64,000 nucleotides of DNA from Rhytidiadelphus loreus (Eukaryota; Streptophyta; Bryopsida; Hypnales; Hylocomiaceae): contig OX344765.1 in assembly GCA_947034895.1 (NCBI GenBank), forward strand, positions 811,001 through 875,000, written 5' to 3'. Made by a program: the position numbers and the translations under genes. Of this stretch, positions 7,720 to 43,390 are shown piece after piece. The notes under the pieces were generated by a model. That model saw only the letters and a list, made by a program, of their open reading frames with translations, did no database searches and was not told the DNA's origin. Within the stretch, counting starts at the first letter, position 1. Each line of letters begins with the position of its first letter.

Positions 7720-8609
7720 AGATCTGAAACGGTGTAACGTCCGTGACCTGAATGTATGCAGTGCTGCGAGTGTATATTCTAATGTGAGGTTCATGTGAAC
7801 TCAAAAGGACAACCCCTTCTGTATTCACTATATTTTTAGAGAATACAACCGGTCTCACTTATAGGATGCCTAAATGTACTAAGTGTTATCAATTATGTAT
7901 CAAAGATTGCTTCAGAAATCATCCTAAACCCTACCTTTTGATTTCTGACCGATCATCGTCAGCAAGTTCTCTGAAATGAAACCATTACTCCGGTCCTTAT
8001 ATATCCCAATGAATCAATGTTGACTGCCAATGCCATCACATGTATATTTTCTAGTGGATCCACTTAAATTTGTTAACTGCAGAATCTGTTTGCATATCGT
8101 ATCTTTTGGCTTCCTACAGGAGAATTGTCCGTATATTTTCTCAAATAATTATGGATATGGCATGTAGTCTAATAATGAAATGAGTACTATACATTATTTT
8201 AATCATTAATTAGATCTAATGGATACCCTCACTCATCAAATGACCGAAATTAATTTGTGATATTTACCCAATCATAATATGATCCGACTCTTCAAATCCA
8301 TTGCCAGTTGATCGTATTTTGTTTTAAGTCCATTTATGACTTCCGTAGCATGAACAATGTTTTGTTTACAGAATCCATTTGAAAATTACCTCTCAAAGAC
8401 GGTTTTAGATTTAATATTGTGGGGGCCACTGACAACCATTCATTGTCATTACTTGTGGACACTACATGCCTTGAAATTTTTATCCGTTCTCCAGTCAAAC
8501 GGATCCGTATAAGTTGCACAAACACACCTCTCATTGTCTCTCAGTCTCATAGGTTCGACGAGTTATAGTCATAGTATTGAACTTGATATACATAGTGAAC
8601 AAGGTGTCC
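7720..8609. other. AT-rich spacer upstream of the MULE-type gene
   Basis: About 900 bp with no open frame and no recognised repeat. It presumably holds the left end and promoter of the MULE-like element. I could not identify terminal inverted repeats or a 9-bp target duplication. Confidence 0.4.
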
Positions 8610-12497: not shown

Positions 12498-13391
12498 AAG
12501 TGCAATAGTACTTTATTGAATGGCATTTCGGATTTGAAGATTGTAGACTAAAATCCGAGATATAGCTTCAGAATTATCACCTGTTATTTGGGCAAATACT
12601 GTAATTTGCAAATGTACTGAGTACGGACTATTTTTAGTCTCAATTCCAATTTTAATATACTTCAGTTCTTTGTCTTTAAAATGTGTACTCTATTATATCC
12701 AGAAATACAGAAAATCAAAGTATTTCCAAAATTCTAAACCCTATACCACGGTTTTAAGTCTCCAGCAAAACGTCCGTGGTCGTCACTACTTTGTATCAAG
12801 TCCACAGTAATGGGTCCACGGTAATAAGCACCCTAAATCCTAAAATAGTCACAACACTAGAAATTGAAAAAATATTGACTCTTTTTAGAAGAAAATGGTC
12901 TCTTTAAAAGATTTTTCTAATTCTTGAATTCCACGCTCACAAAACCCAAGCTCACCGCTCGTAGGCTCGTGCTCGCAGGCTCACAATCTAGCACCGTTGG
13001 AATGATGTGTAGTATTTTGATGTACATTCACTTTATATACATCAAAAGTAAAATACCGTAGGGAGCCTAAAATCTGTTTCTAGAGTGACCAAATTTCTAA
13101 GAAATAGACATCCTTGAATTTTCATTTCATAGAGGATTCTATAACAAAAAAATTACTAATGGAATTTGGAACCTTTTTTAATCAACTCCAAATGGTGTCA
13201 ACTAGGTGATTTCTAATTAAGAATCAGAAATATATTAAAGATTGTTGCTTTGTTTACATTGAATTAAATTTTCATTATTATATTTGGAATCATAGAATAA
13301 AAATGCCCTCCAATGAATCCGAAATGCTAAATTGTCCTATATTGTCCATATTCAAAAACCAAACTTGAAAACATTTAAGTTCGTCACCATA
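12498..13391. other. AT-rich spacer
   Basis: About 900 bp between the MULE-type gene and the hairpin ahead of the Roc-COR gene. I searched for the missing 5' exon of the Roc-COR gene (a P-loop GxxxxG ending in phase 1) and found none. A short GC-richer patch at 12,955-13,000 repeats GCTCGYAGGCTC; nothing else is recognised. Confidence 0.4.
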
Positions 13392-13459
13392 CAATTGCAG
13401 AAAGTTCGTCATCATACAAATGTCCACACAAATGTATGATGACGAACTTTCTGCAATTG
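13392..13459. repeat. perfect 27-bp inverted repeat (hairpin) with 14-nt loop
   Basis: The left arm 13392-13418 begins CAATTGCAGAAAGTTCGTC. The right arm 13433-13459 is its exact reverse complement, and the loop is 13419-13432. A partial extra copy of the arm (GTTCGTCACCATACAATTGC) lies just upstream. It could be a small foldback element, a MITE remnant or a transcribed stem-loop. Confidence 0.9.
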
Positions 13460-13578
13460 AAATTTTTTTGGTGAAGTCTATATAGCTTAGATTAATGATA
13501 TGTAGCTTCTTAAGTTAAATGTATATTGTATAATTGTATTTTTATTGCAATTGATATTTATAGATTACAAAATTGCAG

Positions 13579-16500
13579 GAAAAACAACTCTACGAAAGAA
13601 AATGATATACATTCTCCATGAACAATCAAAAAAATTTCATCCCCAATATAGCCTATCGAAGAGGGTGGAGCTTCCTTCTAGGCATGTTTCCAAACGAACC
13701 ATTGGGGTTGAAGTGGTAACAACTCGTGTTGGAGTTGTTGACCTCTCATTTTGGGACATGGGTGGACAAGATGAATACCATGCCTATCATGATCTTGTGA
13801 TTCCTAACCTTAGTGACAATGGAAGTGCAAGTTTATTCATCTTGGTTTGTTCTATGGCAACAATCAAAGATGGAGCAAATTGTGTGAATGCAAAGAGTAC
13901 TAAGGCCATTGAGATGGAGCTTCAATATTGGTTGCGTTTCCTTTCATCCAATACAAGGACTTCAAAAAACCTCAAGCTTCATGTCCTTGTTGTCTTCACT
14001 CATGTTGATGTTTTGCCCAAGTCCATGAATGTTGGAAGGCACATTGAGAGCTTGTTAACTTCTATCAAATTCAAATTTGGTGATTCTTTTCAATTTTCTT
14101 CCATGGAGTATTTTGTCAAAAGCACTTCAATTCAGATGGTTGAGCCGCTTGTTGAATTTGTAGGCAAAGAGGTTGAAGCAATACTTACAAAAGTACCCAA
14201 TATCTTTGGGGCTTGTCATGAGATGAGGGATGAAATCACAAAATGGAAAAGAGATCATCCTTGTGAAACAATTGTCAAGTGGAGGGACTTTGTACACATG
14301 TGTTGGGAGCTACCTTGGTTGAAGAAGGCAATACCCCATCTTGACACTAATCTTGCAAAAGATATTTGTCAAACAATAGCTTCATCTTTGAATGAAGGAG
14401 GCTACATCATGTATTTTGAGGATCTTGATTTCATTGTGGTAGATCCAAATTGGTTTGGTACGCAAATTATAGGTGCCATTTTTAGTATTGACTACAAATG
14501 TCTTGATCCACACACAAAGGAGCCAGTGACAAATGAGAAGGGCTACAAGGAGAGAGACACTCTTGTGTCCGTATTGGAAAACTCCTTCAAGGATAAGAAG
14601 GGCATTATTAAGAAGGGGATAGACGTGACCCATCATGTGAATGTAGATGACTTGATTTGTGTGATGAAAAAAATGAATGTGTGTTTTGAGGAACAATGTG
14701 CTCCAATTATCAAGAAGTCAAAAAAGTCAATATTCATTCCAGCAACATTGAGGGATGAAGGTGGTCTTGCCCACCAAGGTCAACGCAAGTTGAATTGGAA
14801 TGTCATTGGATCTTCATCAAATGGAACGATAACATACATTGGTCGTCGACTTCAATGTGAGGATTTAGAACGAACATTTCTCACCCCTGGATTTTTCCCT
14901 CGCTTACACGTATGAACATTGTTTTCATTTTTTTTCTAGCAAAATAGTTACATAAGTCTAGATACTCTATTAAATTTCCTTGGATGATGATCTCACTCAA
15001 GTTTATGATGTAGAATGTTGTATTAAAATTGGGCCTTGTATTAGGTGAACTATTGTAGTGTTTGGTATTCATGATTCAAAAATTCAATTCAAGTAGATGT
15101 TCTATAACCTTCTACAATCTATCAAATCTTTATTGTCTTCCAACAAGTATTTATTTATCAAGAAGATACTTATGTTAGTTTCTAATTTTTTGACATACAT
15201 TTTGTTTTTTTGTAGGTTGTTTTGGAAAGGAAGTTTGGATCAAAATCCACTTTTCGCTTGGAGAAGAATATGGTAGCCTTTACAGAGGATGGCATGCAAG
15301 TGCTAGTGGAGCATAGTGGAGATCTCACCTTTGGCAACTTTATGGATGACTTCATTGACATCATGGTGCAATCATTGAAAACCTCTATGAAGACGTTGCA
15401 ATTTGTGAAAGAAGAAGTGGTGAAGCCCATTCAAAGATTGTGTGCATCACCTACTTTTGGATGTCAAGGTGTTACACTTTCTCAAAGCATATTGAGGCCT
15501 GAGTGTGTGAAACACCTTTGGCTATGCATTGACAGAAGGGACCAAGCTATCAATGAAAGAGTTTTGATAGAGAATGTTCTTTCTAAAGAGGATTTTGAGG
15601 GGTATATTCATCATTGGCCAAATCATCATGGAGATGAAGCTCGCAAGTTATTGGGAGACGTTGTATGGAATGAAGAAATTGTGAATAGGCGCATAGCAAA
15701 TATGGCAGAGCTCACAATTGTCTTGTTGCAAGAACAAGATCAAAATATGGTTTCAATGAAGACGAAGGAGATTGGACCTAAAGAAGATTGTCAAGTTACT
15801 TCCTTGGAAGGACTATACAAGAAGTTGAGAGACGAAATGGTCAAAGTCGGAAATTGCATTGTGGAAAGAGTCAACAAGCACACGGAGGAGGCCATATATG
15901 GCATGCGGCGTGAAATATTGGAAGAGATTTCAAAGAGTGTGAATCGATTGATTGATCATTCCATGAACTTGTTGCAACGTCAAGTGCCATGCTATGTGTA
16001 TGTTACTACAAAGGATTTGGAAACATCCGAGTGGTTGATTAGTAGCTTGGTACCTGGATTGAAATCGGTGCAGCTACATTTGATGTGCAAACACAAGGAA
16101 GACATTCACACCGTGGATGATCAAAATGGTGTGGTGTTGCATTTGGAGAGCAAGACATTGCAAGGTCTTCGTCCGTATGTGATTTGGGGGTTGAGGACTA
16201 TCACCATGTTGATGAAAGTGAGTGCAAATGTTGGGGCTGGTCTTGGTTCTATGGTACCTGACTTGGAGAGGTCCCTTTTGAAAGGTGTTGCATCTATCAT
16301 TCCAAACGTTTCTTCAGATTTGCTTGGACCAGAAGGCACTCCTATTGAACAAGTTAATCTTATGAAGTTGAATAATTACTTTAACAATTCAGAGAAGAAG
16401 ATTGCTAAACAATGGCTTGTGAACTTTTTGGTTGGGAAAGACCTTCAAAGGGACTTTGGTTTGCAAAGAGTTCGGTATTTAGATGGAAGCAATGACTTGG

Positions 16501-16580
16501 CATGGTTGTGCCAAAGACACATAGACGAAGGGTATAGGACAAAGGGATTGGAGTTGTGTCCAATCCAAGTGGTCCAATGA
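13579..16580 (+). CDS. Roc-COR (Roco/TORNADO1-like) GTPase, 5' exons missing
   Basis: Two exons are seen: 13579-14909 and 15216-16580. The donor at 14910 and the acceptor TAG at 15213-15215 join in phase 0 to give PRLH-VVLERKFG, the expected COR-domain continuity. Exon 1 opens with the second half of a P-loop (GKTTLRKK), then SKRTIGVEV, WDMGGQDEYHAYHD (switch II, DxGGQ) and VVFTHVDVL (THxD guanine motif), and then a COR domain with NEGGYIMYFEDLDFIVVDPN. Exon 2 completes COR (CQGVTLSQSILRPECV) and adds a coiled-coil stretch and a C-terminal region ending near RVRYLDG...AWLCQRH. Plant TORNADO1 has leucine-rich repeats before Roc; none is seen here. The G codon is split by an AG acceptor at 13577-13578, so at least one upstream exon should exist. 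Both exons are fully open. The gene is either partial or has a very long first intron. Confidence 0.8.
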
Positions 16581-28856: not shown

Positions 28857-28874
28857 CACAAAGGCAGGGTTGAC
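28857..28874 (+). repeat. left target duplication and terminal inverted repeat of the giant hAT element
   Basis: CACAAAGG (28857-28864) is the 8-bp target duplication, and CAGGGTTGAC (28865-28874) is the terminus. Both are repeated, the terminus in reverse, at 43,373-43,390. CAGGG is a common first pentamer of hAT ends. Confidence 0.9.
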
Positions 28875-28952
28875 AGGGCGTCCGGACGTCCAGAGTCCGC
28901 GGACGCTGACCCCAGGACGTCTTTTGACATACCTAGCGGTAGATGAACAGGA

Positions 28953-29165
28953 GCGGACGGCCCGTCGGATCAGAAGCGGACGGCCCAACGGAGCAGAAGC
29001 GGACGGCCCGACGGAACAGAAGCGGACGGGCCAACGGTACAGGAGCGGACGGCCCGATGGAGGAGGAGCGGACAGGCCGACGGGGCAAGAGCGGACGGCC
29101 CGACGGAACAGGGGCGGACTGGCGACCGGATGTCCGTCCGCCTGTCGGGGGCCCGTCCGCTTTGG
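28953..29165 (+). repeat. GCGGACGGC array 1 (left subterminal; upstream of the first cargo gene)
   Basis: Eight consecutive units of 23 bp, each starting GCGGACGG or a one-base variant, begin at 28953. Looser copies (GTCCGTCCGC, GTCCGCTTTGGACGG) follow to 29,165. The spacing is close to two helical turns. The array lies 90 bp inside the left end and about 0.3 kb before the ATG at 29447. Subterminal short-motif arrays are transposase binding sites in hAT and CACTA elements; binding here is inferred. Confidence 0.85.
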
Positions 29166-29270
29166 ACGGTGACCGTGCGATGTGACGGACGCCGATTTTC
29201 CACCGTTCGATCTTGCCGTCCGCATGTGTGCCGTCCGATGCTCCCGTACGTGGATTCATGCCGTCCGACT

Positions 29271-29280
29271 GCATAAATAG
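29271..29280 (+). promoter_or_regulatory. TATA-like box of the first cargo gene
   Basis: GCATAAATAG lies just after array 1 and about 170 bp before the ATG at 29447. Similar boxes follow the arrays ahead of the kinase and RING genes, which supports a promoter reading. Confidence 0.45.
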
Positions 29281-29446
29281 CGGAGAGCACGGCTTATTTT
29301 GCCACAATCGTTTCCCTTGCAGAGTGGGTGATCTAGTGCCTAAGGCTCTGTGCGCCTCTTCCGTTTTGGTGTGCAAATGATTGTGATCGAACCCTAAATT
29401 GTTTCAAGTGTAAGTGCGAATCATTAATCATTTAAGCAAGCTTACC

Positions 29447-30547
29447 ATGCTTCGCGATAACAAATCGAAGTCCAGTAAGAAGGGCAAATCCCAAGACATA
29501 AATTGGGATGATTGGGACAACCAAATGTGTGTAGCTGAACTGGAATGGGAAGAAGAACCCAAAAAAACTTGGGACTGCACGACGTGCAAGAAGTACATCA
29601 AAATGATGCACCTCTCCAAAATACGGTCCAGAGAACGCGCAGAGGTGCAAGTTCGTCGTTGGGAAGGACAAATTTCCACATGCCAAAGCAAACACTTTGT
29701 TCATCGATACGAGGAAGTAACACGTTCAGCTCAAATACGGGACTCCGAACCGAATTTAATGAACTATTCCAACATGAGCATGGTTTGGGCGGAGATTGTA
29801 CTCCACAAAGATGTACATTGGCGCACAATTTACGAAAAAGATGTTACCCACTTGAATCGCAGTGATGCGGTACTTTATACCAGTTGGATTGGGCCGAGCG
29901 ATTGCATGCCAGAGTGGTCTAATCGAGGCCAGTTTGGATTTCCACCGATTGTATTGCCGGATGCAGAAGATGAATGGTCAGGTGATGATGATGAGAAAGA
30001 CACTCCAACACCCGCGAGGATGGAAGAGAGGCACGAGCGTACAGAAGATCGGGAGGACATTCAATACCAACAAGAAATGCGAGAGGCAATGCAAAGAAGC
30101 CTAGAGGACCGTGGTCGACAATATGGCCATCATGGGGTGTACAGACCCGATCGTGGTGCATATGGCTTGCAAGATACGCGAAGTATTTCACACTACGATA
30201 ATGACCCTCAAGGGGGGTATCACAGCTCAAGGACAAGCCACGGAACCACGCATCATTTTGAAGGTAACCAGGGAGGCTCCCAATACAACTTTACGTCTAT
30301 TGGAGGTGGTTCTCATGAACCTCAAGGAGGCCCTTCTTATGGCGGTTCAACTCAAGGAACATCTACTCACAATGATTCAATTCCTCCTCCAACTTTTGGA
30401 GGTCCATACCAAGGACATTATGGACAAGCAAGTGGGCAAAACAGATATGGAGACGACTACTATGGCGGAGGACCATTTCTCAATGTTTATAGGTCTAGTG
30501 GTACAGGCCCAAGCCAAAAAGATGACACCGAATCAGAATCTGAGTGA
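29447..30547 (+). CDS. giant-hAT cargo protein with unrecognised Cys/His domain and Gly/Gln-rich tail (366 aa)
   Basis: The start is ATG 29447 (MLRDNKSKSSKKG); an upstream extension of the frame has no ATG. Residues about 45-135 form a domain shared with the RING protein at 35,486: TCKKYIKMMHLSK, then a C...HFVHRYEEVTR segment, then NYSNMSMVWAEIVL and HW. No known family is recognised, and a zinc-binding or DNA-binding role is only a guess. An acidic stretch follows (WSGDDDEKD), then a Gly/Gln/Ser/Tyr-rich low-complexity tail (residues about 220-366) that ends in ESESE and resembles a disordered or activation region. The frame is intact. It is the first gene inside the left end of the giant hAT, behind array 1. 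Confidence 0.7.
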   Translation: MLRDNKSKSSKKGKSQDINWDDWDNQMCVAELEWEEEPKKTWDCTTCKKYIKMMHLSKIRSRERAEVQVRRWEGQISTCQSKHFVHRYEEVTRSAQIRDSEPNLMNYSNMSMVWAEIVLHKDVHWRTIYEKDVTHLNRSDAVLYTSWIGPSDCMPEWSNRGQFGFPPIVLPDAEDEWSGDDDEKDTPTPARMEERHERTEDREDIQYQQEMREAMQRSLEDRGRQYGHHGVYRPDRGAYGLQDTRSISHYDNDPQGGYHSSRTSHGTTHHFEGNQGGSQYNFTSIGGGSHEPQGGPSYGGSTQGTSTHNDSIPPPTFGGPYQGHYGQASGQNRYGDDYYGGGPFLNVYRSSGTGPSQKDDTESESE

Positions 30548-31571
30548 AGTAGATTGGACTATTGGACATTTGTAAGATTGTAGTTGTTGTCTCACAATAC
30601 AATCAAGTGATTGTAAATTTGTAATCTCTTGCCACATAATATAGAAAGTGACAAGCACGGTACAAAGATGTTGGCTCTTAACAAATAGTATTTTCCTATT
30701 TGTAAATTATGAATAAAATATATTGTAATTAAGCCCTAAAGCCCTATGGATGTTTTTAGAAAAATGGATTTGTTCGGACCACTTCTACGGTATATACCGT
30801 AGAAAAACATCAACATCAATTTCTGGGGGGAATTTAAATAAAGTATTTTGGACATAACTTATTTGAGAGCATGGCGCCAAAATTTCAAAATTTTTGACTG
30901 CATGGATTGAAAGATATGGCATGATAAGCACTGCATTTGAAATTGAGAACACCTTTAATCTCAGACAAAATTTCAGTAAAGAATTTTTTACAAATTAAAA
31001 TCTGCAATTTCGGTTTAATTTACAAGACCACAACCCAATTATGCTTTGGAATTTTAATTTCATTTAGGGTTCTAGAATAATGAACGGAAAATTGATTCAA
31101 GGAGTTTGGCACTTAAGCTTCTCCTAAACAAAATCAACTTCGCAAAACAACATATTGTATAATTGTATTATTTCAATACAAATGGTGTTGTTACTTTGTT
31201 GCCCCCCAATGAAAATTTGGGGGATTCTCTTGCATGTGCCATACACATTTACACGATAGATCATACAATTTAGCACACCACCTTGCCAACCTAGGTGGCT
31301 AGGTACCCAACAATCCAACATCAATGATACATCAAGAAGAAGAACTCCAAGTCTACATTTCTCATCCACCCAAAAAAGATGTTTTGTATTTAAATAGTTT
31401 GTGTTCTGAAAAATACAAAATGTTCAAAACGGAAAGCCAATTTCACATATATTGGCATACATTGATGGTGTATATATAGTCTATAGTTAGCACACATAGT
31501 AACGTACATCCTCACTGATACATTTATCGATTACTTCTATAATCTATAGTACTATGTAGCACACTCATATA
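30548..31571. other. AT-rich spacer between two convergent cargo genes
   Basis: It holds the 3' ends of the plus-strand cargo gene and the minus-strand kinase-like gene. Apart from a perfect palindrome at 30,783-30,804 nothing is recognised. ORFs here are short and unsupported. Confidence 0.5.
30783..30804. repeat. perfect 22-bp palindrome
   Basis: The core reads CTACGGTATATACCGTAG and the symmetry extends two bases on each side. It sits in the convergent 3' region between two cargo genes. It could be a binding site for a dimeric protein or an RNA stem near transcript ends. Confidence 0.85.
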
Positions 31572-33056
31572 TTAATATGAGTGACGGAAGTGGTCATCTG
31601 GAATAGGCCAATTGTAAGAATTAGTAAATCGTTGGATGATTTCGGAAAAACTTCCGCGCTCCGCAATCACTGAATTGCAAAGGCGATCCAAGTAGAGGTG
31701 AAATACCCTTGCCAAATCGTGGTGGCTAAACCTCGTATGTCCTTCATTTTCACGATGAAGCGATGTGTAGGCCTCTGACATGCATAGTTTGTTGATCCGT
31801 TGAGCTATTCGACCAACGGCATATTCCTCCGATTTACGTGACAAAGTTGGAATCATTTCCACATCCGCATCTTTGCGGTGCACGTATGCAATTGAAGGGT
31901 CCACCCACCACCTTCGGTTCAAAGCTGCATCCCGATCTGCCGCAGATGTGAACATATACAATGACTTCATTGGTTCAGTACGAACCGTAGACATGCCCCA
32001 ATCGCAAACTCCAATGTAAACACGTGATTCATCCTCAGGAAAGTGAAACATGATATTGTCGGGAGATATATCATTGTGTAGATGACCCGCATTGTGGACC
32101 GCATTCATGATATGTACCAATGCCCATGCCAACTCGGTGCGCTTCTTTCTCCATCGACCAAGACGGAAAGCTTGAATCACCTCTTCGGGCGTTGGTCGTG
32201 AATAAGACAATCGAATGGCAATGTTATCTGGATAATCATTATCGAGAATCAACATTTGCCACAATGTACCACCATTCCACCAATATGCATACCCTTCATT
32301 GTTTGTTGCATGGACAGCGGCAAACCGAATAACTCCGTCATGTGGAATCCTCACTGCCATTGATTCGTTTTGGTGCTCCAACTTCGCAAGTTGAGGACGA
32401 ATCCGTTGTTGATGAGATATCTTTGCAGCAAATTCCCAAAATGTGGGAATCTCATGACATCCTTCAATTCGAACCCTGCGAATTGTTGCGTATCCGCCCT
32501 TCAAGATTTTGTCATCTTGTAGAATCACCCTTGCTGTGTCTGGTAGTGCTATGAGATGTCGTCGTCCACGTTGCAATTCTACATCTCCTTCATCCGAAGT
32601 CCACCAACCCAATGACCCTCGCCGATTGCGTCTCTTTGCAAACGGAGCGCAACGACGAACAAACAAGTCAGCTTTGAGAATGACTTGTTCAAAGCTTTCA
32701 TCACTTGCACGGTGTTCCCTCCCGTATTTTTCTAGGATCACCTTCACATTCCACAATGCGTCTTGCACCCTGTTCTTTAGAAATTGTTGGAAGCCTTTCT
32801 TCTCCATTTCATGAATCCATTGTGGAACGTTTAGAGCATCCGTGAACTTCTGTGTCATATCCATCTTGAATTTGTCTACACATTCCTCTTGGTATCTCAC
32901 ATATTTAGTGTCAAGAGACACTGTAGTTTCCGCCTCATAAAACTTCACAATGTATTCAATCAAGAATACTTTGCAAGCATTGGAAGGAAGTTCACGTGCT
33001 GAGTCAATATCGGGCACCACATTCTTCCCCTTCGCCGCTCTCTTCGGTCTCGGCAT
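31572..33056 (-). CDS. protein kinase-like protein carried by the giant hAT (494 aa)
   Basis: An intact minus-strand frame from ATG 33056 (MPRPKRAAKGKN, a basic start). The kinase-fold motifs are in order: a glycine loop ILKGGYATIRRV (about 184-195), FAAKI with Lys212 in the VAIK position, HLHNDISPDNIMF (326-337) as the catalytic loop with HND in place of HRD and with Asp329 and Asn334, and CDWGMS (351-356) as a DWG version of DFG. EYAVGRIAQRI (411-421) fits helix F. The first 150 residues are an unrecognised helical region. The key residues are present, so activity is plausible; substrate and regulation are unknown. It is convergent with the first cargo gene, and its promoter side faces array 2. 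Confidence 0.72.
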   Translation of the reverse strand: MPRPKRAAKGKNVVPDIDSARELPSNACKVFLIEYIVKFYEAETTVSLDTKYVRYQEECVDKFKMDMTQKFTDALNVPQWIHEMEKKGFQQFLKNRVQDALWNVKVILEKYGREHRASDESFEQVILKADLFVRRCAPFAKRRNRRGSLGWWTSDEGDVELQRGRRHLIALPDTARVILQDDKILKGGYATIRRVRIEGCHEIPTFWEFAAKISHQQRIRPQLAKLEHQNESMAVRIPHDGVIRFAAVHATNNEGYAYWWNGGTLWQMLILDNDYPDNIAIRLSYSRPTPEEVIQAFRLGRWRKKRTELAWALVHIMNAVHNAGHLHNDISPDNIMFHFPEDESRVYIGVCDWGMSTVRTEPMKSLYMFTSAADRDAALNRRWWVDPSIAYVHRKDADVEMIPTLSRKSEEYAVGRIAQRINKLCMSEAYTSLHRENEGHTRFSHHDLARVFHLYLDRLCNSVIAERGSFSEIIQRFTNSYNWPIPDDHFRHSY

Positions 33057-33249
33057 CGTAGAAAGTATTAATTTTTAGTCCCAATTTAATTCATAAAAAA
33101 TTACAGTGCACCAAGTACATATAAACTGGAAAAAACGGGCAAAATATAGGCCCCCAAAATCCACCTCCAACCTTCCCAACGAAAGGAGCCAATGGAGGAT
33201 AAACCACCAAGCTCTCCGCTCTCTCTTGCAAAGCACAAGGGGGAAGGCA

Positions 33250-33565
33250 AAAGTGAGAGCGGACGGGCCGTCCGCACCGCCTTATATGAGGCGGATGGCC
33301 TCGAGGTCTGCACGAGCGGACGGCCAACGGTCCGCCTCGCTTCGGCCGTCCAATGAAACGCACGGATCGGCAGTCCGCTTCATCGGACGGCCAAAACAGA
33401 CCGCCCAGCCGGACGCCGACTCCGCGACGCGGACGGCAGCGCCGAAATCGCGGACGGCGATTAGCAGCCAGATGGCGGCCTGCAGCACGCGGACGGCAGC
33501 TCCGACGGGCGAACGGCAGCGTGGGAACGGAGGACGGCGGGGTCCGCCTAGGCGGACAGGGGTGG
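33250..33565 (-). repeat. GCGGACGGC array 2 (upstream of the kinase-like gene), with TATA box
   Basis: About ten GCGGACGGC-like motifs in both orientations, mostly GCGGACGG on the plus strand, spread over 310 bp. The array begins about 200 bp upstream of the kinase ATG at 33056. On the minus strand CATATAAGG (33281-33289) is a good TATA box. The outer edge carries GTGGGATTTTGA, similar to the outer edge of array 4 near 39,108. Confidence 0.75.
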
Positions 33566-33573
33566 GATTTTGA

Positions 33574-34979
33574 AGTGCATCCCGCCCAAATTCATCATTA
33601 CGGCCTTAGGGGTCTTTGAATCCTTGATGTCACCAGCTGGCTGGCCCTCCGGTTCAATTTCATTTTTAATGTGGTTCCTTTGTGCCAATGGCGCTGGGAT
33701 TTCATTTGATCTAAAAATTAAAAAATAAATAGAAAAAAGGATGTGTGAATTTAGGAATTATCTAAAAGATTCACATATTTTTGTATGTTGTTTTTACGTG
33801 CATGCATTGAGTTTATAATTTTCTCTTATTTTCTAGGGATGCAATTGAATTTCCTATGATATAAATTTTTGAATGAAATGAAGAATTGAACACATGGTAA
33901 TTTAATTCTACTTATTTGAACTTCGAGAAAAAACTTAAAGCTTCTCATTGTCCAAATGAAGCTACGAGGTTTGTTTCTTGTATGTCAACACCTCATAAAA
34001 TGGTCATTTCAAAACCAAAGACAAAAATTCTTTTAAATGGTATTTTACATGAAGGGGATATTAGGGGCTTGCAAAGGTTTTGATACTCTAGCATGAAAAC
34101 GTGTAGAAGTAGATTTCTAGAAGTCTCCCCCCCCTCCCTTTGAGTTGAATGAATTTATTGATTTCCAATGTATTGATTTCCATTCTTTACAGAATCATAA
34201 GGTGCCAAAATATTAGCGCCAATTATATCAAGTTAAATTAATTCTAGTATGAAATTATAACTTGCTCAATCACTAGGGTGGGACAACGTGCTATGAAAAT
34301 AGTGCATACACTTGTCTTCTTATAACCTCACAAGTTCATGTGCACCCTACTAGGCATTCAAGCAAATTTTTTAAAGTCTAAACATCTACATGGTTAGGAA
34401 ATGCAAGGACAAATGTTTATTTCGTTGTGGATACTAAAAGGCCATTTTTTTTTTCATACGTACAACACACTTTGAATGGCTTGGGCACTCAAACCTCTAA
34501 AAGATTTGATCCATTGGAAAATTAATCAACTTTGAATATTACATGAATTGGACCTTGGGAATTGTTTGCAATTCAATAACTCCTTTCCATTTTGTTATTA
34601 GTTCTATTTGGAATTTTGGGGGGCATACTTGTTTATCTAAAATCAAAGACAAAGGATTGTGATTGTCACCCCCATTTGGACAACGAAAGGCCTAAACCCT
34701 ATACCCTAAACCCTAACAAGGGTTTGGAGGCATTGCATTAGTCAAAATACTACCTTTGAGTCCGTGGATTGCCTTGACATTTATGAAAACCAAGTCAATG
34801 CATCGAACATTGAAACATTCCTTCATCAATGAACACCCGGTACTAGTACAACGTCTCTACATTCCCAAATGAAAGAATCCTATGCTTCTGAAAATCAGAA
34901 GAGGACTAGAGGACTCAAGAGGGTGAAAACAAGGCCCAAACTCCCTAAGTGTGCTTGGGCAGACCTCGGGGAGGGAAGG
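33574..34979. other. spacer between divergent cargo genes
   Basis: About 1.4 kb of AT-rich DNA between arrays 2 and 3. Near 34,690-34,715 two or three CCCTAAA-type telomere-like units occur, far too few for a telomere. No gene is supported. Confidence 0.5.
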
Positions 34980-35255
34980 GCGGACGGCAGCGTCGAAAAT
35001 GCGGACGGACCCGTCGGAATGGCGGACGGCGGCTCCGACAGGCGGACGGCCCGTCGGAAATGCGGACGGAAGCGTCGGAATCGCGGACGGGGGGCAGCAG
35101 GCGGACGGCGGTGGCGGGAAGGCGGACGGCAGCGGCGGATTTGGAGACGGATGGGCCGTCCGATTGAGCGGACGTTCGGGTCCGCTTCGCATTGGTTGGG
35201 GGAGGTTCAGTGGCGGACGATCTTAGGTTTGGTTTCGGACGGCTATAAGGACGGA
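34980..35255 (+). repeat. GCGGACGGC array 3 (upstream of the RING gene), with TATA box
   Basis: Eight units starting GCGGACGG, 18-21 bp apart, run from 34980 to about 35,150. Single motifs then continue up to a TATA box, GGCTATAAGG, at 35241-35250. The first unit, GCGGACGGCAGCGTCGAAA, recurs in inverted orientation at 39146-39164 in array 4, so arrays 3 and 4 bracket the RING gene as inverted repeats. Confidence 0.82.
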
Positions 35256-35485
35256 CGGCCTTCTTGTTTTTTCTCACTTCCCTCTCCTTCCTAGGACTCA
35301 CAACCGTGTTGGATGTGCTACTGTTGCTTCATTGTGCCAGTTGCTCCTACATGGTGGAGAGGTGGGGTCATTCATCTATCATTATTGGTTCACATACAAA
35401 CATTCATTGAAACTTGGGTGGATTGAAGACACATACTTTTGGTGACTATTTAAATTCAATTGGGGACAAGTTCAAGTTGACAACC

Positions 35486-38400
35486 ATGAGTGGTCAAGGC
35501 GTTGAAGGTAGTGGTGGGTTGACCGGCGGAGGTGACAATAGTAGGAGGCCTAAACCAAAGGGAACCGCCCATGAGCTCCACTATGAGATTTTAGATGATC
35601 CCAACATCAAAGCAGAGGGTGGTTGGGAAGCGGAGGAAGCGGAATATTGGTCCTCCAAAACGTGCAAGAAGTATGTGAAGATGTACCACATCGACAAGTT
35701 GTGGCCTAGGGAGGCCCACATCATCCATACTCGTGGTTTTTGTTGCAAACCAGGGAATTGCAACAATGCGCACTTCATTCACCGAGCGCATGAAGTTTGG
35801 CGGGCCCTCTTCGGGGATAAAGCAATGTCCAAGGGGTATATAAACTACAGCTTGGCTTCTATGGTGTATGCAGAATTGATATTGGCACGCAAGGTAGATT
35901 GGAGCACGTTTCCAACGACAACGAACGCTCCACGTGTGCTTGAATGTAATCGGAAAGATATTCCCGATTTGTACAATCCACAAGCAGGGCCAAGTGAGGC
36001 ATTTAAATCCAAAAGAGAGGTCAAACCAATGACACGGACTATGACCAAGGACGTGGAGGTCACAAGTTCGGCAATGCAATTGGCTTCAACACAAAACCGT
36101 ACGGCAATACAAGATTTCAAAGGCGAGCATGTGGAGGGAGACATATTTTTAACTCCTCCAACGGATTTGATATGCACACCAAATGGAACAACAATGGTGG
36201 AGCACGTGGCCCCATCCGCACCACATGAACGTCATGATGATGTCATTGAGGGAGAAGTTGCTAATGCGGGAATTGCCATTCAGAATCTTATAGACAGCAA
36301 TGCTTTAAATCATTTGGCAAGTACTTCGAAGCAAAGTTTGCCGAAGACACCGAGCCCGACATTGAATCTAGGAGTTGAGGGGCATCCTTCACCTCATCAT
36401 GGAGAACAATCGGATGGCGTGCTGCCAAATGAGACCATTCTTGGCGGATTTATCGATTCCAAGTATCCACATTTGTCATCATTGAGGACATCAAAATGGC
36501 AAATTGTTCGTCGGATGCCCTTGGTTGCATTATTAGAATCTTTGTGTAAAGGTTCACATTTGTGGCGGTCACACGAAGAACGTTTAAAGAACATGGAGCA
36601 CACCAACGAGGATGGCACGAGTAACGGAGGCGCAGAAACCCAAGATGAGCCTTCCGAGAGTCAATGGGCTGATTTTGTTTTGACCGCATCAAAATTGGTA
36701 GTTACGGCTCAATTTGTAGCAGAAGTCGCTCCAAGGCTGCAAGAAGTTGCAACGGATTTTTCCAAATTAGCGCCTGAATTGTTGAGTGGTGCCTTGGACT
36801 TCATGAAGTTCAGCCAATCTATGACACCATTTCTCGACGAGCGTGTTACAGATTTGAAGGTTTTGAGTGAATACCAAGAGGAGATCAAGAAGTATAAGGG
36901 TATAGATGTTGAGAATCTCAAGTTGGCGGCGGATGCTTCGAAATTGAAAGAGAAGCTAGAGACATTGGAGGCTCAATCAGATCGTCGCCATAATACATTG
37001 CTTTTCCAAAGGAAGTTTATTGAAGACTTGGAGTACGAAATTGTAGCGTTGAAGAAGAAAATCCGAGAAGGTGAGGTGGTTGTTGAGAAGGGAAAGGAGA
37101 AAGTGGAGGACAGACTAGATGGCATTGAGGAAAACAACAATCCGGATTTGTTGTATTTGACCCCCATCGGTAATACTAATTCCACATTCCACGATGCTTC
37201 CATGCAAACGGAAAGCAATGAGGTCAAAGAATTGAAGCAAAAATTGAACGAGGTCACCGAAGAAAACACGCGTTTGGAGGCCAAGTTGAAACGATTGCAA
37301 CGGATAGTGCAATTGGATGAATGTATGCCGAAGGGCACTTTGGACTCTCGATGGTTGGCATGGGTGCAAAAACTCGAAGACAAACCGTCTGTAATATCAC
37401 GAGCAATGAAAGGGCTACTCAAATTGGTAATGAAGTTGGATGAAGAATGCGATAGCGTGGAGTCCTCTCTTTGGCGTTTGAAGAAGATGTTTGCCTTTGT
37501 GCCAACGGGATCTACCGAAATCACATATTGGGGAGACATGGATGCAATGTTCGAGCGTTTGAACCACACAAAGAAGGAAGAGGTGGCCTCCATTAATTGG
37601 GCCTTGGAACTAGAAGAAGGTTGGGTCCCTTATCCCACGCTTTCGGCACACATCAAGAAGAATGACAAGACAATGGTGCATGCTTGTGATCCTTCGGCCT
37701 TAATATTGGAGGGTCATTGTAGCCTTTGTCGAGTTCATTTTGGGCCCGAGGGAGCCCTCACCATGGGCCAATGTCCCCACACTTTCCACATCACATGCAT
37801 CGTGAAAGCATCCCTTATTCGTTCGGTGTGCCCCGAGTGTCGTTCTCCCTTGCCTCCTAGGTTCTACGAAATGCTCGGGATCTCGGAAGCTATGCCCCCC
37901 GGCCATGAATACGATCGATGGACCCTTCCGTTAGACCAAGCGCCATTCAAATTTCAAAATTATGTGCATTGGGGAAAAAGTCTAACGTGGGATTCGGTAA
38001 ATTCTACACATGGGCTATACGAATCATCGGAGGTGCCGATAGATTCCTTGGTGTGGATGACCCACGATCGAGACGTGGAGTTGCGAGCTAGAGGTATTGC
38101 CAACGAGGAGGATCGAGAAGTGTTTTGTCGTAGTATGGGGGGCCATTGGAGCATGCAACACCACAAATTCTTTTGATTTCCCGAAAAGGAAGTGAAGAAA
38201 GGACTAGATGGCAATTGGATAGAGGTGGAGCCTACACAAGAGTTTAATGAGCAATACGGGGATTACAATCACACTTTGCTAGGGAGGGCCCTGTTTTTAT
38301 CAAAGTTGGAGGAAGCTGCACAAGTTCGTGCCTTTGTGGAACTAGATGGGCAATCAAGCACAAAAAATTCAATGGTGGAGGTGGTGGGGGCATTTGATAA

Positions 38401-38773
38401 GAGGATGGGCGAAATCATAATGCATTGGAGGGCATTTTTAGTGGGGGGAGAAGAACCAAAGTGGTTTTCCATGAAAAATGATGATGACGTGGTCAACTTT
38501 TTGGTAGATAAAGTGGATGCTGCTTTGAGAGCGTTGAAGGCAGAAGACGTGGATTTGACTCCAAAACGGAAGAATAAACGGAAGATTGAAGACGAGGATG
38601 ACTACTTTCCGGATACGAAACAACACTTTTCCGCAGTAGACATGGAAGCTGCGTCCAGAGGGCCTATGAGTAAGGGCAGTCTTGGTCCTCAAACACGCCG
38701 TGCAAGTGCAAGGCTGAAGGATAAAGAGGATTCGTCGCGTCTTTCTGAGGGAGGTAGCACGGATAATATATAG
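35486..38773 (+). CDS. giant-hAT cargo protein: Cys/His domain, coiled coil, RING-H2 finger; in-frame TGA before the last 199 codons
   Basis: The start is ATG 35486 (MSGQGVEGSGG). Residues about 55-140 share the domain of the first cargo protein: TCKKYVKMYHIDK, then HFIHRAHEVWR, then NYSLASMVYAELIL and DW. A disordered stretch follows, then coiled coils (about 460-610), then a RING-H2 finger (745-785): CSLC, CPHTFHITC and CPEC, in the C3H2C3 pattern of E3 ubiquitin ligases. A TGA at 38174-38176 follows KFF. The same frame then stays open to 38773 (GLDGNWIEVEP to a basic KRKNKRK patch). The stop may be a recent mutation, may be read through, or may truly end the protein at about 896 aa. The gene lies behind array 3. 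Ubiquitin-ligase activity is inferred from the RING only. Confidence 0.7.
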
Positions 38774-39117
38774 GGTAGTTACACCTTGTTTGTATTTCGA
38801 TATGACATTATGGAGTGTTGTTAATTTTGAATCTCGAGAGGATTCAATACTATTAATTCACAACACTCATAGTATGCTATGAGTTGCTTTTCATTAATAT
38901 AAAAATATGTGGGTTACTCAAATGTTTTTGAATTTATTCTCCTAAGTTTTTGATATTTTATGCGATACTTTTTTGTCAAGTATGATTTTGGACATGCCTA
39001 TCTCTCAACATAATTTTATCTCATTAATTTCTGTATTCCTAAAATTACGTGCATCTCTAAACTAAGTCCCTAAAATTAAAACTTGTAGAATTAATGAATT
39101 ACTCAAAATCCACCAGC
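38774..39117. other. spacer after the RING gene
   Basis: About 340 bp of AT-rich DNA that likely contains the RING gene's 3' UTR. No signal stands out. Confidence 0.5.
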
Positions 39118-39300
39118 CGTCCGCTAGTCCGCCACCCGCCTACAATTTCGACGCTGCCGTCCGCCTGTCGGAGCTCGCCGTCCGCGATTCCGCCGCTGCC
39201 GTCCGCCTGTCGGAGCTCGCCGTCCGCGATTCTGTCGCTGCCGTCCGCCTGTCGCAGGTCGCCGTCCGCGATTCCGTCGCTGCCGTCCGCATTTTTGTTC
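39118..39300 (-). repeat. GCGGACGGC array 4 (upstream of the transposase gene), inverted orientation
   Basis: On the plus strand the motif reads GCCGTCCGC. From about 39,158 it repeats every 21 bp, and two spacer types alternate (CTGTCGGAGCTC and GATTCYGYCGCT), giving a 42-bp higher-order unit. The transposase ATG lies about 320 bp downstream. A weak TATA-like CTATAAG is at 39377-39383. Confidence 0.82.
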
Positions 39301-39617
39301 TCGAAACCGTTGGGGCTTTAGAAATGTTTTAGTTTTTGCTGCTCAACGGTCATGAGGAATGGGCCTGATCTGAAATCTATAAGTTCTTAGAATTTCAGAC
39401 TAACAAGCATTCCTGAGAAACTGAACGCTAAGATTTCCAAGGGCTAGGAGCTGCAATTTATTTTGTGTCCCTTGCTTGGTAATGCATAGTTCAATGGACA
39501 GGGGGGCTTTGGTTTCCAAGGCTTCATTCACACATTGTTTCTAATATTTTTTACAAATCTTATCCAACGGTTACATTTTTAATTTGAATCCAATTTACGG
39601 AATTGGAGGTGATCACT

Positions 39618-42600
39618 ATGAGCAAGGATTGGTCTTCTTGGTATGGCTTCCCGGAGGTTGGTAAAGTGCAATGCCGGTTTTGCAACTTGGTGTTTGCCAA
39701 GAAAGTAAGCCGGTTGTTTAGCCACTTAGGATACCAAGGCACATCGGGGGCTCGTGACAAAGGAATTAGCCTTTGCACAAAAATGACATCTCAAGTTCGA
39801 GCTTTATTTTTGGGTTGCCAAGGGGCGATCCCACGAAGATCGTCTCTGAACAATGTGGATGGCAGTGGCACACCTATGGCTATGCGGGAATGCGATAATT
39901 CAAATGGAAGAAACATGGCACGGTCTACACATTCCGACTCATGCACTGCACCGGAGGATTTGGATCCATTGTCTTCTGAAGTGAACCTCAGTACACAAAG
40001 ATCAAGTGAGCGTGGTACTCCACGGGGATCAAGCAGTAGGCCTCTGATTAGTCAGAAGCAAAGTATTCTGGTGAATGGATTTGAAGAAGCAAATAAACGC
40101 AAGTTGAATGCGGTGTGGGCCAATTTCTTTTATGCTGCAAACATACCATTTGCTGTTGCGAGGAACCCAGCATTCAAAGAAGCGGTGAAGCGAACCGCCG
40201 AGTTTCAACGGCCTTATATCCCACCGTCTTATCACGACTTACGCCATAAATTGCTTGACCAAGCAAAGGCAGACATTGAGGTCAATCTCCAAAAGCGGAC
40301 CGAACACAGCATTAGGAAGTTTGGAACAACATTGTCTATTGATGGATGGACGTCGGTTACGAATCGGCCGTTGATAAATGCCATACTCGTGTCTTCTGCG
40401 GGTGAGCAATTCTTGGGAGCGGTGGATACGACAGGGCACGAAAAAAATGCAACATATTTGGCTGGCATACTTGAGAGCTTCATAGAACAAGTAGGCCCCA
40501 ACAATGTGGTGCAGGTGAGTACAGATAATGCGTCAGTGAACCCTGCAGCATGGAATTTGATATCTAGAAAATATCCCCACATTTTTTTTCAAGGTTGTGT
40601 AGTACACGCCCTCAATTTGTTGCTGAAAGATTGGGGGAATGAACAATGCATTGAAGAGGTCGTGGAAAATGCCCGTATCGTGGTGAAATTCTTCAAGAAG
40701 CGGCACATGCCACTTGCAATATTTCGGAAGTACTCACCGGAATATAATTTGTTGATGGCGGTGGAAACAAGGTTTGCCTCTAATTACAACATGATTGGGC
40801 GCATGTTGAAGGTCAATGGGAAGTTGCAACAAACAGTGACGGACCCGCAATGGGATGAATACGCAAGGAAGTTTGGGCGGAACTCCAAATCCCGTAGTGA
40901 ATGTCGGATGGTGAAGAAGATAATTTTGAGCGAGCATTTTTGGCGCCGTTGTCAAAATTTCAAGGACTTGTCGGCTCCCGTTGTAAATGGTCTACGTGAC
41001 TTGGATGCAAAGAGGCCATGCATGGGCAAGGTGCTGCACATAATGAGGAAATTAGATAAACATGTCCTCTCTTTAGATAAACCGCCTTTTCGTTTATCCT
41101 CAGACCTTGCCATTCCACTAGTGCAACCGTATTATGCCCGACGGGAATTGGTGGAGACCGATCTACATTATGCAGGAGCTTTGTTGAACCCCTACCTTCT
41201 TGAAGATCAAGAGCTAGCCGACGACCAAGATGCAATGGATGCATGCAAGCGTGTTCTAATGAAAATTTGCAAACAAGGGGAGTACGCCTCGGTCGTGAAA
41301 GAATTTGTAGCCTTCCGCCACAGGGAACCTCCATTTCACAACATGTTGAACCCGGACGAGCAACAATTGTCGGCGCACGCTTGGTGGGATTTTGAAGGTG
41401 CGTGTGGGAAGCTCATTGCTCCAATTGCTAAGAGGATTTTGGCCCAACCGGTATCTTCGTCTTCATGTGAACGAAATTGGAGTAGCTATTCATTTGTTCA
41501 CAACAAATTTCGAAACAAGTTGAAGCCACAGAGAGCCCAAGATTTGGTGTATGTGTACACCAATTCCAAAGTCCTTTCTGCATCAAAGGAAAACGATGAG
41601 AAGAAGTGGTACACCGAGAATGTGGAGTCAGAAGATTCTATGTCGGAGGACGAGCGTGATGAAGATGGTGAAGATGGTGATCCTCTATTCGATAACGAAG
41701 ATGCTATGAATGATGACATCACCAATTTGGATGATGAACCGCTCCGGAGCCCAAATCGGAACAATGAAGAAGGGGATAGAAATGCAGAAGACATTTACAA
41801 CTTTCCATTGGATGAGGACAATTGTGAATATGATGAAGGTGGCCCTTCTATAGCTAAATTTGTAGATGGAACCGGGTTGTTGACTAGCGAAAAGATTCTA
41901 GCCAATACGGAGGACACTCATGCGCAAATAGTGGAGGAAAATGAGGCAATGTTTGTCAATGATTGCATCCCCCAAACAGATGAAGTGATTCCAATTCTCG
42001 AGAGTCTACCCATGGCAATGGCACTTGTAGAAGAAAATCCCGAAGTCAATGACATGGGAGAGTGTGGGGTGAAGTCTGACATGAATGTGGATAATACAAG
42101 TGTTGAATGTGTGGAAGTACCATCGAATGTAGATGCACGTGTGACGGAGTTTGATCGCCCAATGCTAGTTCACAACGTCGAAGACCAGAAGCAAATTGTG
42201 CAAGATCTCCAATTACGACCACGTAGCAATCGTCCATCAGCACTACATACAAGAGGTAGTACAACTTTGAATGGTCCCGGAGGCTCAAGATTTGGGAAAC
42301 AAGTTGAACAACATTTGACCAGTCCAACCGGAATGCACCTTCGTGTCAATCCAGATCCATTCAATTCATCATGGAGCGATGATGAGAAGGACGAGACATT
42401 GGCATCAATGTTTGGTCAACGTTCTGGCCAAACAAAACGTGATTCATTCAAATCGTCTGATGGAACATTGCAACAGATGATTGGAGCAAAGATACCCAAT
42501 CAAGGAGGATTGCAAGTAAGACCACCAACGGTGAAAGAGTCCCACAAAGCTCGAAATAAAAGATTAATGGAGGCTTTTGCAATTTCCCCATCAAAGAGAC

Positions 42601-42905
42601 AAAGTCTTGGTAAAACCCCTCTTGATGTATGTCAACCAATTTCAGCGAGGAAATTAAAACCGATTCATGGCCTTAAAGAAGGCATAGGAAAGTCTATACT
42701 AAGAGCCAAACAAGAGCAGAGGAAGGGCCGACCAACGAGGTCAGTTGCATCCAAGCAAGTACAAGGAGGGGCAATTGTACAATCTTTATCAGAGGATATG
42801 GAAAAGTCAGACAACGATGAAGATGAAGATTCAGGATGGGATACTAGAGGTCATAGTAGCGGGGCAGAGGTGAAAGGAGATAGTGATTATCAGCCTTCAG
42901 GATGA
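39618..42905 (+). CDS. hAT transposase with BED-like finger, DUF659 core and long acidic tail (1,095 aa)
   Basis: The start is ATG 39618 (MSKDWSSWYGF). A BED-like zinc finger follows: CRFC (19-22), LFSHLG (His36) and LCTK (Cys53). The hAT/DUF659 catalytic core has SIDGWTS (Asp242), VSTDNAS (Asp303) and CVVHALNLL (Cys327/His330), and WWDFEG (Glu593) is the likely third acidic residue. The hAT C-terminal dimerisation region follows, SSSSCERNWSSYSFVHNKF to DLVYVYTNSKVL (about 610-655). The remaining roughly 440 residues are acidic, Ser-rich and low in complexity, ending in a basic segment (near 1,000-1,060) and DYQPSG. This extension is unusual for hAT proteins. The frame is fully open with all catalytic positions present, so the element may be active or was recently. 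It should excise and insert the element, making 8-bp duplications. Confidence 0.85.
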   Translation: MSKDWSSWYGFPEVGKVQCRFCNLVFAKKVSRLFSHLGYQGTSGARDKGISLCTKMTSQVRALFLGCQGAIPRRSSLNNVDGSGTPMAMRECDNSNGRNMARSTHSDSCTAPEDLDPLSSEVNLSTQRSSERGTPRGSSSRPLISQKQSILVNGFEEANKRKLNAVWANFFYAANIPFAVARNPAFKEAVKRTAEFQRPYIPPSYHDLRHKLLDQAKADIEVNLQKRTEHSIRKFGTTLSIDGWTSVTNRPLINAILVSSAGEQFLGAVDTTGHEKNATYLAGILESFIEQVGPNNVVQVSTDNASVNPAAWNLISRKYPHIFFQGCVVHALNLLLKDWGNEQCIEEVVENARIVVKFFKKRHMPLAIFRKYSPEYNLLMAVETRFASNYNMIGRMLKVNGKLQQTVTDPQWDEYARKFGRNSKSRSECRMVKKIILSEHFWRRCQNFKDLSAPVVNGLRDLDAKRPCMGKVLHIMRKLDKHVLSLDKPPFRLSSDLAIPLVQPYYARRELVETDLHYAGALLNPYLLEDQELADDQDAMDACKRVLMKICKQGEYASVVKEFVAFRHREPPFHNMLNPDEQQLSAHAWWDFEGACGKLIAPIAKRILAQPVSSSSCERNWSSYSFVHNKFRNKLKPQRAQDLVYVYTNSKVLSASKENDEKKWYTENVESEDSMSEDERDEDGEDGDPLFDNEDAMNDDITNLDDEPLRSPNRNNEEGDRNAEDIYNFPLDEDNCEYDEGGPSIAKFVDGTGLLTSEKILANTEDTHAQIVEENEAMFVNDCIPQTDEVIPILESLPMAMALVEENPEVNDMGECGVKSDMNVDNTSVECVEVPSNVDARVTEFDRPMLVHNVEDQKQIVQDLQLRPRSNRPSALHTRGSTTLNGPGGSRFGKQVEQHLTSPTGMHLRVNPDPFNSSWSDDEKDETLASMFGQRSGQTKRDSFKSSDGTLQQMIGAKIPNQGGLQVRPPTVKESHKARNKRLMEAFAISPSKRQSLGKTPLDVCQPISARKLKPIHGLKEGIGKSILRAKQEQRKGRPTRSVASKQVQGGAIVQSLSEDMEKSDNDEDEDSGWDTRGHSSGAEVKGDSDYQPSG

Positions 42906-43169
42906 AAGGGATGTATAATTCATTATTCAAGTGTTCATAATGAATTGTTACATGGAAGCATGTAACGGCAATTTATTTTTTGAACCTATCATTGTAATGC
43001 ACCTGAACTTAATGATGTTCAAAATATCATCAAGGTTTTTTTGTTTCTAAATAGTCAAGCACTATTGACTAAAATTACATTGTGTGCATCATTTTCTGGA
43101 TCAAGTATTACCTACAAAAATGTAATAGTATAATGCATCAAATTTGGCTTCATGTACTGTAGTTTTATG

Positions 43170-43345
43170 GATGTCCGCCCGTCCGTGCCGTCCGCCGTCC
43201 GCGCGGACGCGTCCGCCGTCTGCGCCAACCGCCCGTCCGCGTCGGTCCGAACGGCCGACGGGTGCCATCCGATGGACGCCGTCCACATCGTCCGCGCGTC
43301 CCGAAAATGTGGGCGTCCGGACGTCCGGACATCCGAAAAATGGAC
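43170..43345 (-). repeat. GCGGACGGC array 5 (right subterminal)
   Basis: A dense run of GTCCGCC and GCCGTCCGC motifs with less regular spacing, including GTCCGGACGTCCGGAC near 43,315. It lies about 40-210 bp inside the right end and is inverted relative to array 1, as expected for subterminal transposase sites. Confidence 0.8.
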
Positions 43346-43372
43346 GTGATTTTGCCCCGGACATTGAAATTC

Positions 43373-43390
43373 GTCAACCCTGCACAAAGG
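43373..43390 (-). repeat. right terminal inverted repeat and target duplication of the giant hAT element
   Basis: GTCAACCCTG (43373-43382) is the reverse complement of the left terminus and is followed directly by CACAAAGG (43383-43390), identical to the octamer left of the element. Confidence 0.9.

Follow-up and report, generated by a model that had tools for sequence, protein, structure and literature searches.

Multi-gene hAT elements of 14.5 to 24 kb in Rhytidiadelphus loreus, with kinase-like, RING-like, and novel-domain genes that may be array-addressed accessory machinery

The window analysed here, a stretch of 64,000 nucleotides from Rhytidiadelphus loreus (Bryopsida; contig OX344765.1, positions 811,001 to 875,000), contains a complete hAT transposon with four types of genes: a transposase, a kinase-like gene, a RING/coiled-coil gene, and a gene for a novel-domain protein (gene 1). 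Ordinary hAT elements have one gene and are a few kilobases long. Elements of this kind, which we term family 1, are four-gene units of 14.5 kb that have inserted as a whole throughout the genome, and a second hAT family (family 2) carries the same types of genes. We think it probable, if well short of certain, that these belong to a class of hAT elements that are autonomous and multi-gene, and in which the additional genes are accessory machinery, addressed via repeat arrays, and not passenger cargo. The features of the window copy are listed in Table 1. Coordinates are window positions unless a contig (C3, C4, or C5) or a joined stretch is named.

The 10-mer CAGGGTTGAC has two exact matches in the window, at 28865-28874 on the forward strand and at 43373-43382 on the reverse strand, and the octamer CACAAAGG lies directly outside both of these termini, in identical form, at 28857-28864 and 43383-43390. 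The span between the duplications is 14,518 bp. These positions bear out the original prediction, from the sequence of the window alone, of inverted termini flanked by an identical octamer. With up to one mismatch, the 10-mer is found three times in the window, versus 2.2 times expected, so the motif by itself proves nothing and our case is built on copies. The unit is a hAT element because it combines an 8-bp target site duplication (TSD), a terminal inverted repeat (TIR), and a transposase of the right type. (hAT TIRs typically start with a CAGGG-like sequence. Both families have short, hAT-like TIRs: CAGGGTTGAC in family 1 and CAGGGTTGT in family 2.)

We searched the 407-Mb assembly (489 contigs, the five large ones being 94, 90, 85, 75, and 51 Mb) and found at least 42 matches for the transposase, at least 50 for the RING gene, at least 87 for the kinase, and at least 112 for gene 1. 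(Genomic gene counts are lower bounds, as they include the best-scoring candidates only.) Among the 30 transposase loci that we fetched, the right terminus was recognised in 28, with at most 4 of 19 bases differing and with differing flanking sequence beyond it; it was not seen in L005 and L024 within the stretch examined. The left halves of three further copies were read, and each has gene 1, the kinase gene, and the RING gene arranged as in the window, together with the left terminus. The TSDs of these copies (AGTACGGT, ACGGTGGA, and ACTTGGAC) are the same in the left and right flanks. Thus, identical 8-bp TSDs were present in four of four family-1 copies inspected at both ends, including the window copy.

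The gene order is also maintained on a larger scale. Within 20 kb of the 42 transposases, and in the expected place and strand, there is a RING gene in 22 cases, a kinase in 27, and gene 1 in 28; all three partners are present at 14 of the transposases, at least one at 36, and none at 6. Four controls with wrong arrangements of the partner genes gave 0 in each. An opposite-strand kinase lies within 12 kb of 65 of the 112 gene-1 matches listed, and the gap is 900-1200 bp in 56 of these 65 pairs. Similarly, 71 of the 87 kinases listed have gene 1 or a RING gene within 20 kb, and for 47 of the 50 RING genes listed, one or more element partners lie within that distance. (In some copies, the distances between genes are much larger.) Identity among the 30 transposase copies ranges from 97.2 to 99.6% (median 98.3%), and 11 of these copies are free of stop codons. 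The original prediction had suggested looking at other loci for these ends together with this gene set, and three further copies have both, while the gene order recurs more widely; it had also raised the possibility that a smaller, nested element owns the ends, and this was not found, as the ends bound the whole set in four of four copies.

The nearest relatives of the window's gene 1 share its chromosome, at distances of up to about 0.53 Mb (99% identical at C5:783435, 97% at C5:711880, and 96% at C5:318182 and C5:376549), and the nearest relative of its kinase (99%) is at C5:714788. This clustering at 0.32-0.87 Mb of C5 resembles the outcome of hopping, or else of duplication, on a local scale. 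C3 holds 54 of the 112 gene-1 matches listed, including all 12 that are under 90% identity; older family-1 copies seem to be retained there.

Flanks joined by one TSD, from copy L006 and from the window copy, were compared with the rest of the genome. For copy L006, at least 40 other places in the genome match all 408 bases of the joined flanks, at 96-97% identity, and this is a clean insertion into a repeat. (L006 is on C3 at 20.06 Mb, and the repeat itself has an open frame at the insertion site.) For the window copy, the sole full-span match to the joined flanks is C4:11636750-11637194 (L038), which is 75% identical; both flanks are there and the element is not, but the junction holds 29 additional bases, and this locus is an unoccupied duplicate rather than a perfect pre-insertion site. 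An empty site of the sort envisaged in the original prediction is thus clean for another copy, but not for the copy in the window.

The second family came from family-1 copy L010, which is nested in an open frame that encodes a relative of the novel domain. With the nested copy set aside, the surroundings are a second hAT element of 24,342 bp, with the TSD GCCTCGCG on both sides and the TIRs CAGGGTTGTC.../CAGGGTTGTT.... Its transposase has Pfam matches above the cut-off to DUF659 (8.3e-36) and to the hAT dimerisation domain (2.6e-5) and is 40% identical to the family-1 transposase over 501 amino acids. We read the family-2 gene set in this one element. Its kinase is in pieces, one 37% identical to family 1 over 150 amino acids and another 32% identical over 139; its RING/coiled-coil gene is 28% identical over 222 amino acids, with a RING-like match that is below the cut-off; and it has two novel-domain genes, the second one recognised by a tblastn match. 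Overall, the proteins of the shared gene types are roughly 26-40% identical between the families, and the gene order and orientation differ. The family-2 transposase has at least 84 genomic matches that are 95-100% identical. Four more family-2 copies were inspected where their ends should lie: the TSDs are identical in two (CTTTATAC and TTCAAGAT; 22,783 and 22,352 bp) and agree at 7 of 8 positions in a third, and the fourth shows a single end in the stretch read. Including the copy around L010, both ends were seen in four of five copies (TSDs identical in three and 7/8 in one), with sizes of 22.4-24.3 kb.

The transposase of the window copy has Pfam matches to DUF659 (1.2e-35) and to the hAT dimerisation domain (3.9e-10), both above the cut-off, and a profile of 16 transposases matches the Hermes transposase structures (1.9e-11, profile positions 581-643). 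In these 16 sequences, D247, D308, C332, and H335 are invariant and E623 is at least 90% conserved (P0001 numbering). We take D247, D308, and E623 to be the catalytic D, D, and E of Hermes, and C332 and H335 to be its CxxH.

The kinase-like gene is predicted to encode a protein-kinase fold that keeps the catalytic Lys, Asp, and Asn and the Mg-binding Asp. Its AlphaFold model (mean predicted local distance difference test score, pLDDT, of 86; predicted template modelling score, pTM, of 0.66) matched 1859 PDB chains at E ≤ 0.001, and all 50 of the chains listed are kinases, with template modelling scores of 0.54-0.67 when scaled to the target length and 0.34-0.40 when scaled to that of the query. 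K212, E231, N334, and D352 are invariant and D329 is at least 90% conserved across 44 sequences, which comprise the query plus 43 of its 66 relatives.

The RING protein has a Cys/His pattern, as judged by eye, that may supply RING-H2 zinc ligands, and it is predicted to be ubiquitin-ligase-like. The full gene has about 1,100 codons, and an in-frame stop ends the window copy at 38176; the tail at 38192-38773 continues in a full-length relative, P0006 (by eye). The original prediction of an apparently intact transposase and three other open genes was thus right about the four gene types, but the RING gene is cut short. Among 29 aligned loci, 9 reach this stop codon, and it is present in the window copy and in none of the other 8. 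Intact copies do exist, as 33 of the 50 genomic RING matches listed have an open frame of at least 1,120 amino acids. The 921-residue frame is found in 3 of the 50, including the window copy, and the two further copies may share its stop.

Gene 1 and the N-terminal domain of the RING protein are 31-36% identical over 144-157 residues, and 13 columns of this shared domain are invariant in 14 sequences. The model of gene 1 is confident (pLDDT 88, pTM 0.86), and the structure search gave no convincing PDB match for it.

Both families have GC-rich arrays of short, family-specific motifs. The window has 34 GCGGACGG sites, all of them inside the element and none in coding sequence, versus 0.3 in block shuffles of the element (at most 3). 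Of these sites, 31 precede a gene start by 203-506 bp (9 for gene 1, 6 for the kinase, 8 for the RING gene, and 8 for the transposase). The GCGGACGG motif is absent from the family-2 element, where the motifs are GGGCGAC (67 sites) and GCGGGTC (39 sites), versus about 2 of each in shuffles. Half of these 106 sites (53) lie upstream of four genes, at 223-572 bp from the first ATG (transposase 20, novel-domain gene 10, kinase 13, and RING gene 10). For the second novel-domain gene, which has no placed start, another 11 sites precede the matched part by 428-673 bp; 14 are at the left end; and 2 of the 106 are in coding sequence. So, there is an array 0.2-0.6 kb upstream of every placed start (4 of 4 genes in family 1 and 4 of 5 in family 2). 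The arrays also vary in size among family-1 copies, with 10-39 CGGAC in the right 1.5 kb (28 loci with this end) and 4-24 upstream of the transposase (30 loci).

Table 1. The family-1 element of the window, with its genes and its islands of repeats
Feature	Position	Strand	Description
Left target site duplication	28857..28864		8 bp, CACAAAGG, identical to 43383-43390
Family-1 multi-gene hAT element	28865..43382	+	Complete, 14,518 bp, TIR CAGGGTTGAC
Right target site duplication	43383..43390		8 bp, CACAAAGG
Gene 1	29447..30547	+	366 amino acids; N-terminal novel helical domain in common with the RING protein
Kinase-like gene	31572..33056	-	494 amino acids; predicted protein-kinase fold
RING/coiled-coil gene	35486..38176	+	Novel N-terminal domain; shortened by in-frame stop
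Open reading frame of 193 amino acids	38192..38773	+	Cut-off C-terminal tail of RING gene
hAT transposase	39618..42905	+	1,095 amino acids; DUF659 and Dimer_Tnp_hAT
Island 1	28953..29223		Left subterminal array and array upstream of gene 1; 9 GCGGACGG, partly in 23-bp units
Island 2	33259..33496		Array upstream of kinase gene; 6 GCGGACGG
Island 3	34980..35129		Array upstream of RING gene; 8 GCGGACGG
Island 4	39117..39290		Array upstream of transposase gene; 8 GCGGACGG
Island 5	43188..43240		Right subterminal array; 3 GCGGACGG in CGGAC cluster 43173-43358

We propose the following scheme. The transposase would cut and paste the element via its CAGGG ends, as the copies with TSDs and the empty sites indirectly suggest. 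An element-encoded protein (the N terminus of the transposase or the novel-domain proteins) would likely bind the family-specific arrays. Because the arrays lie both upstream of the starts and at the ends, this binding could switch on the genes and the ends together, or keep them unsilenced together. The kinase and the RING protein, once brought to the arrays, would likely act on a host factor for silencing or repair, or else on the transposase, by modifying or removing it. In this scheme the extra genes are accessory machinery comparable to the VANC proteins of VANDAL elements: they likely serve the element itself, and by analogy their role is probably regulation or anti-silencing. As the same gene types recur in family 2 at about 26-40% identity and have their best relatives in other sources at 50-68%, accessory genes fit better than random passengers. 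The original prediction spoke of a new class of cargo transposon; a multi-gene hAT unit is supported, but "cargo" is less apt given this recurrence. More tentatively, and with less confidence than we place in accessory genes as such, these elements might be an undescribed giant autonomous hAT class with at least two deeply diverged families in this one plant genome and with its own array-addressed system for signalling and protein turnover (kinase, RING ligase, and novel-domain adaptors). Plants would then have evolved sequence-specific anti-silencing a second time and independently, with hAT elements instead of Mutator elements as its carriers.

Relatives of three of the proteins were found in other sources: 12 for the RING protein (best 50%), 66 for the kinase (best full-length 68%), and 15 for the transposase (best 65%). 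The only species-named plant among these sources is another moss, Ceratodon purpureus. RING relative P0006 and transposase relative P0084 are each reported from just one contig, with a length of 17,649 bases, a coincidence expected about 0.01 times; for kinase relative P0075 and transposase relative P0096, the longest contig is 6,480 bases in both cases (expected about 0.05 times). The members of each pair probably share a contig. There was no such coincidence between RING and kinase relatives. The kinase relatives from Ceratodon purpureus include P0051 and P0038, and one cluster, which takes its name from the gene KC19_VG055000, comprises 126 sequences; elements of this sort may therefore be frequent in that moss. 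Another kinase relative, P0020 (66% identical), is filed under a "Bacilli bacterium" metagenome-assembled genome, on a 2.9-kb contig, and is probably plant contamination.

Several observations weigh against accessory, array-addressed genes. First, some of the domain assignments are marginal: the N terminus of the transposase has just a weak zf-BED match (E = 0.18, 12.3 bits versus a cut-off of 20.6), the kinase-like protein scores 24.2 bits with Pkinase (cut-off 31.7), and the RING-like match at residues 768-810 of P0002 (zf-RING_2, 1.7e-4) is also under Pfam's curated cut-off. Second, because its RING gene is truncated, the window copy alone may lack some function. Third, the genes drift almost neutrally among recent copies, with no strong within-family selection on the extra genes: in four copies, the ratio of nonsynonymous to synonymous polymorphism (pN/pS) is 1.26 for gene 1, 0.65 for the kinase, 0.80 for the RING gene, and 0.77 for the transposase. 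(For the transposase, the ratio of nonsynonymous to synonymous substitution rates, dN/dS, is 0.54 in 20 copies.) The within-family data are thus no proof of selection on the extra genes, and conservation across families and sources is the only evidence of constraint. Fourth, a family-2 array of about 26 of the 106 sites, at 15.07-15.80 kb of the joined stretch, has no gene that we could find beside it, which implies that the arrays are not only promoters. Finally, the arrays could be ordinary transposase-binding repeats.

That last point belongs to a broader alternative, which we consider rather unlikely: the extra genes could act in transposition itself, by phosphorylating, stabilising, or turning over the transposase and by bridging ends that are 14-24 kb apart, with the arrays as transposase sites and with no role in silencing. 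The length of the elements, the presence of arrays at both ends besides the internal ones, and the family-2 array without a gene beside it all fit this idea, and hAT transposases bind subterminal repeats, according to the portion of the source available to us (PMC8097297). In contrast, only 3 of the 34 GCGGACGG are outside of the four gene-upstream islands, which points to gene regulation, with the caveat that island 1 is also left subterminal.

A less probable alternative, in our view a doubtful one, is that the element took up the extra genes from the host as passengers, which travel with it because they happened to lie between working ends and which may be of some use to the host. Host genomes commonly encode kinases and RING proteins, within-family drift is near neutral, and the gene order is not the same in the two families, all of which could be expected of passengers. 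Yet the same three extra gene types lie beside transposases that are only about 40% identical, and they are preceded by each family's own array. Also, the best relative of the kinase (68%) is no lower than that of the transposase (65%), and most of the kinases and RING genes listed (71 of 87 and 47 of 50) have an element partner within 20 kb. That the unit is a set of independent transposons nested in one another, with the hAT ends coming from a smaller element, is very improbable: nesting does occur (a family-1 copy is inside the second family) and some intergenic distances are much larger, but this reading is contradicted by the constant order and near-constant spacing in many copies, by exact TSDs around the whole set in four of four copies, and by clean empty sites.

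Outside of the element, the window has several long open frames without a Pfam match at 8577-16580. The frames at 8577-12497 are Mutator-like, by eye only, and 13545-14915 has a weak match to a Roc GTPase (1.5e-4, below the cut-off).

The elements share 8-bp TSDs, short CAGGG-type TIRs, and DUF659 and dimerisation domains with the rest of the hAT superfamily (Ac/Tam3, Hermes), but they are 14.5-24 kb long and have four or five genes. Among the papers listed by an open-literature search, we recognised no plant hAT element with a kinase/RING/novel-domain set. Fungal Starships are also large eukaryotic elements with several genes, but in the accounts of them available to us the cargo is variable, whereas here a hAT transposase accompanies a recurring gene set. 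The captain of a Starship is a tyrosine recombinase.

Extra genes in hAT elements are themselves already known. In the part of the rust-fungal study available to us, TET+ hAT7 elements carry an additional gene, form 20 families, and are regarded as counter-silencing (PMC12730594). They have 7-bp TSDs and a TET/JBP dioxygenase, in contrast to the 8-bp TSDs and the kinase, RING, and novel-domain genes described here (PMC12730594), and a Pfam scan of the five open reading frames of our element gave no TET/JBP match. The same part of that study does not describe the kinase/RING/novel-domain set in rust-fungal hAT elements (PMC12730594). It does describe IS3EU, a fungal DNA transposon with a kinase-like gene opposite to its transposase, but the transposase is of another superfamily, the TSD is 6 bp, and the kinase is an alpha-kinase rather than the Pkinase-like fold predicted here (PMC12730594).

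Another parallel is with the VANDAL elements of Arabidopsis. These also have several genes, and their VANC proteins bind family-specific short motifs that form tandem arrays in the non-coding parts of the element, with units gained and lost between copies (PMC5735166, in the portion available to us). VANDAL has a Mutator-type transposase instead of a hAT transposase, and that portion of the source does not mention a kinase or RING gene (PMC5735166). Also, anti-silencing was demonstrated for VANDAL (PMC5735166), whereas for these hAT elements we infer it. The scheme gains further support by analogy from DNA-binding domains derived from hAT, which often favour CGG or CGC, in the part of that report available to us (PMC8097297).

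With two families (14.5 and 22-24 kb), exact ends, and many copies, it becomes directly testable why a cut-and-paste element keeps a kinase and a ubiquitin-ligase-like gene, and likewise whether there is more than one kind of sequence-addressed anti-silencing among plant transposons. Furthermore, some of the kinase and RING "gene families" in the annotations of such genomes may belong to transposons.

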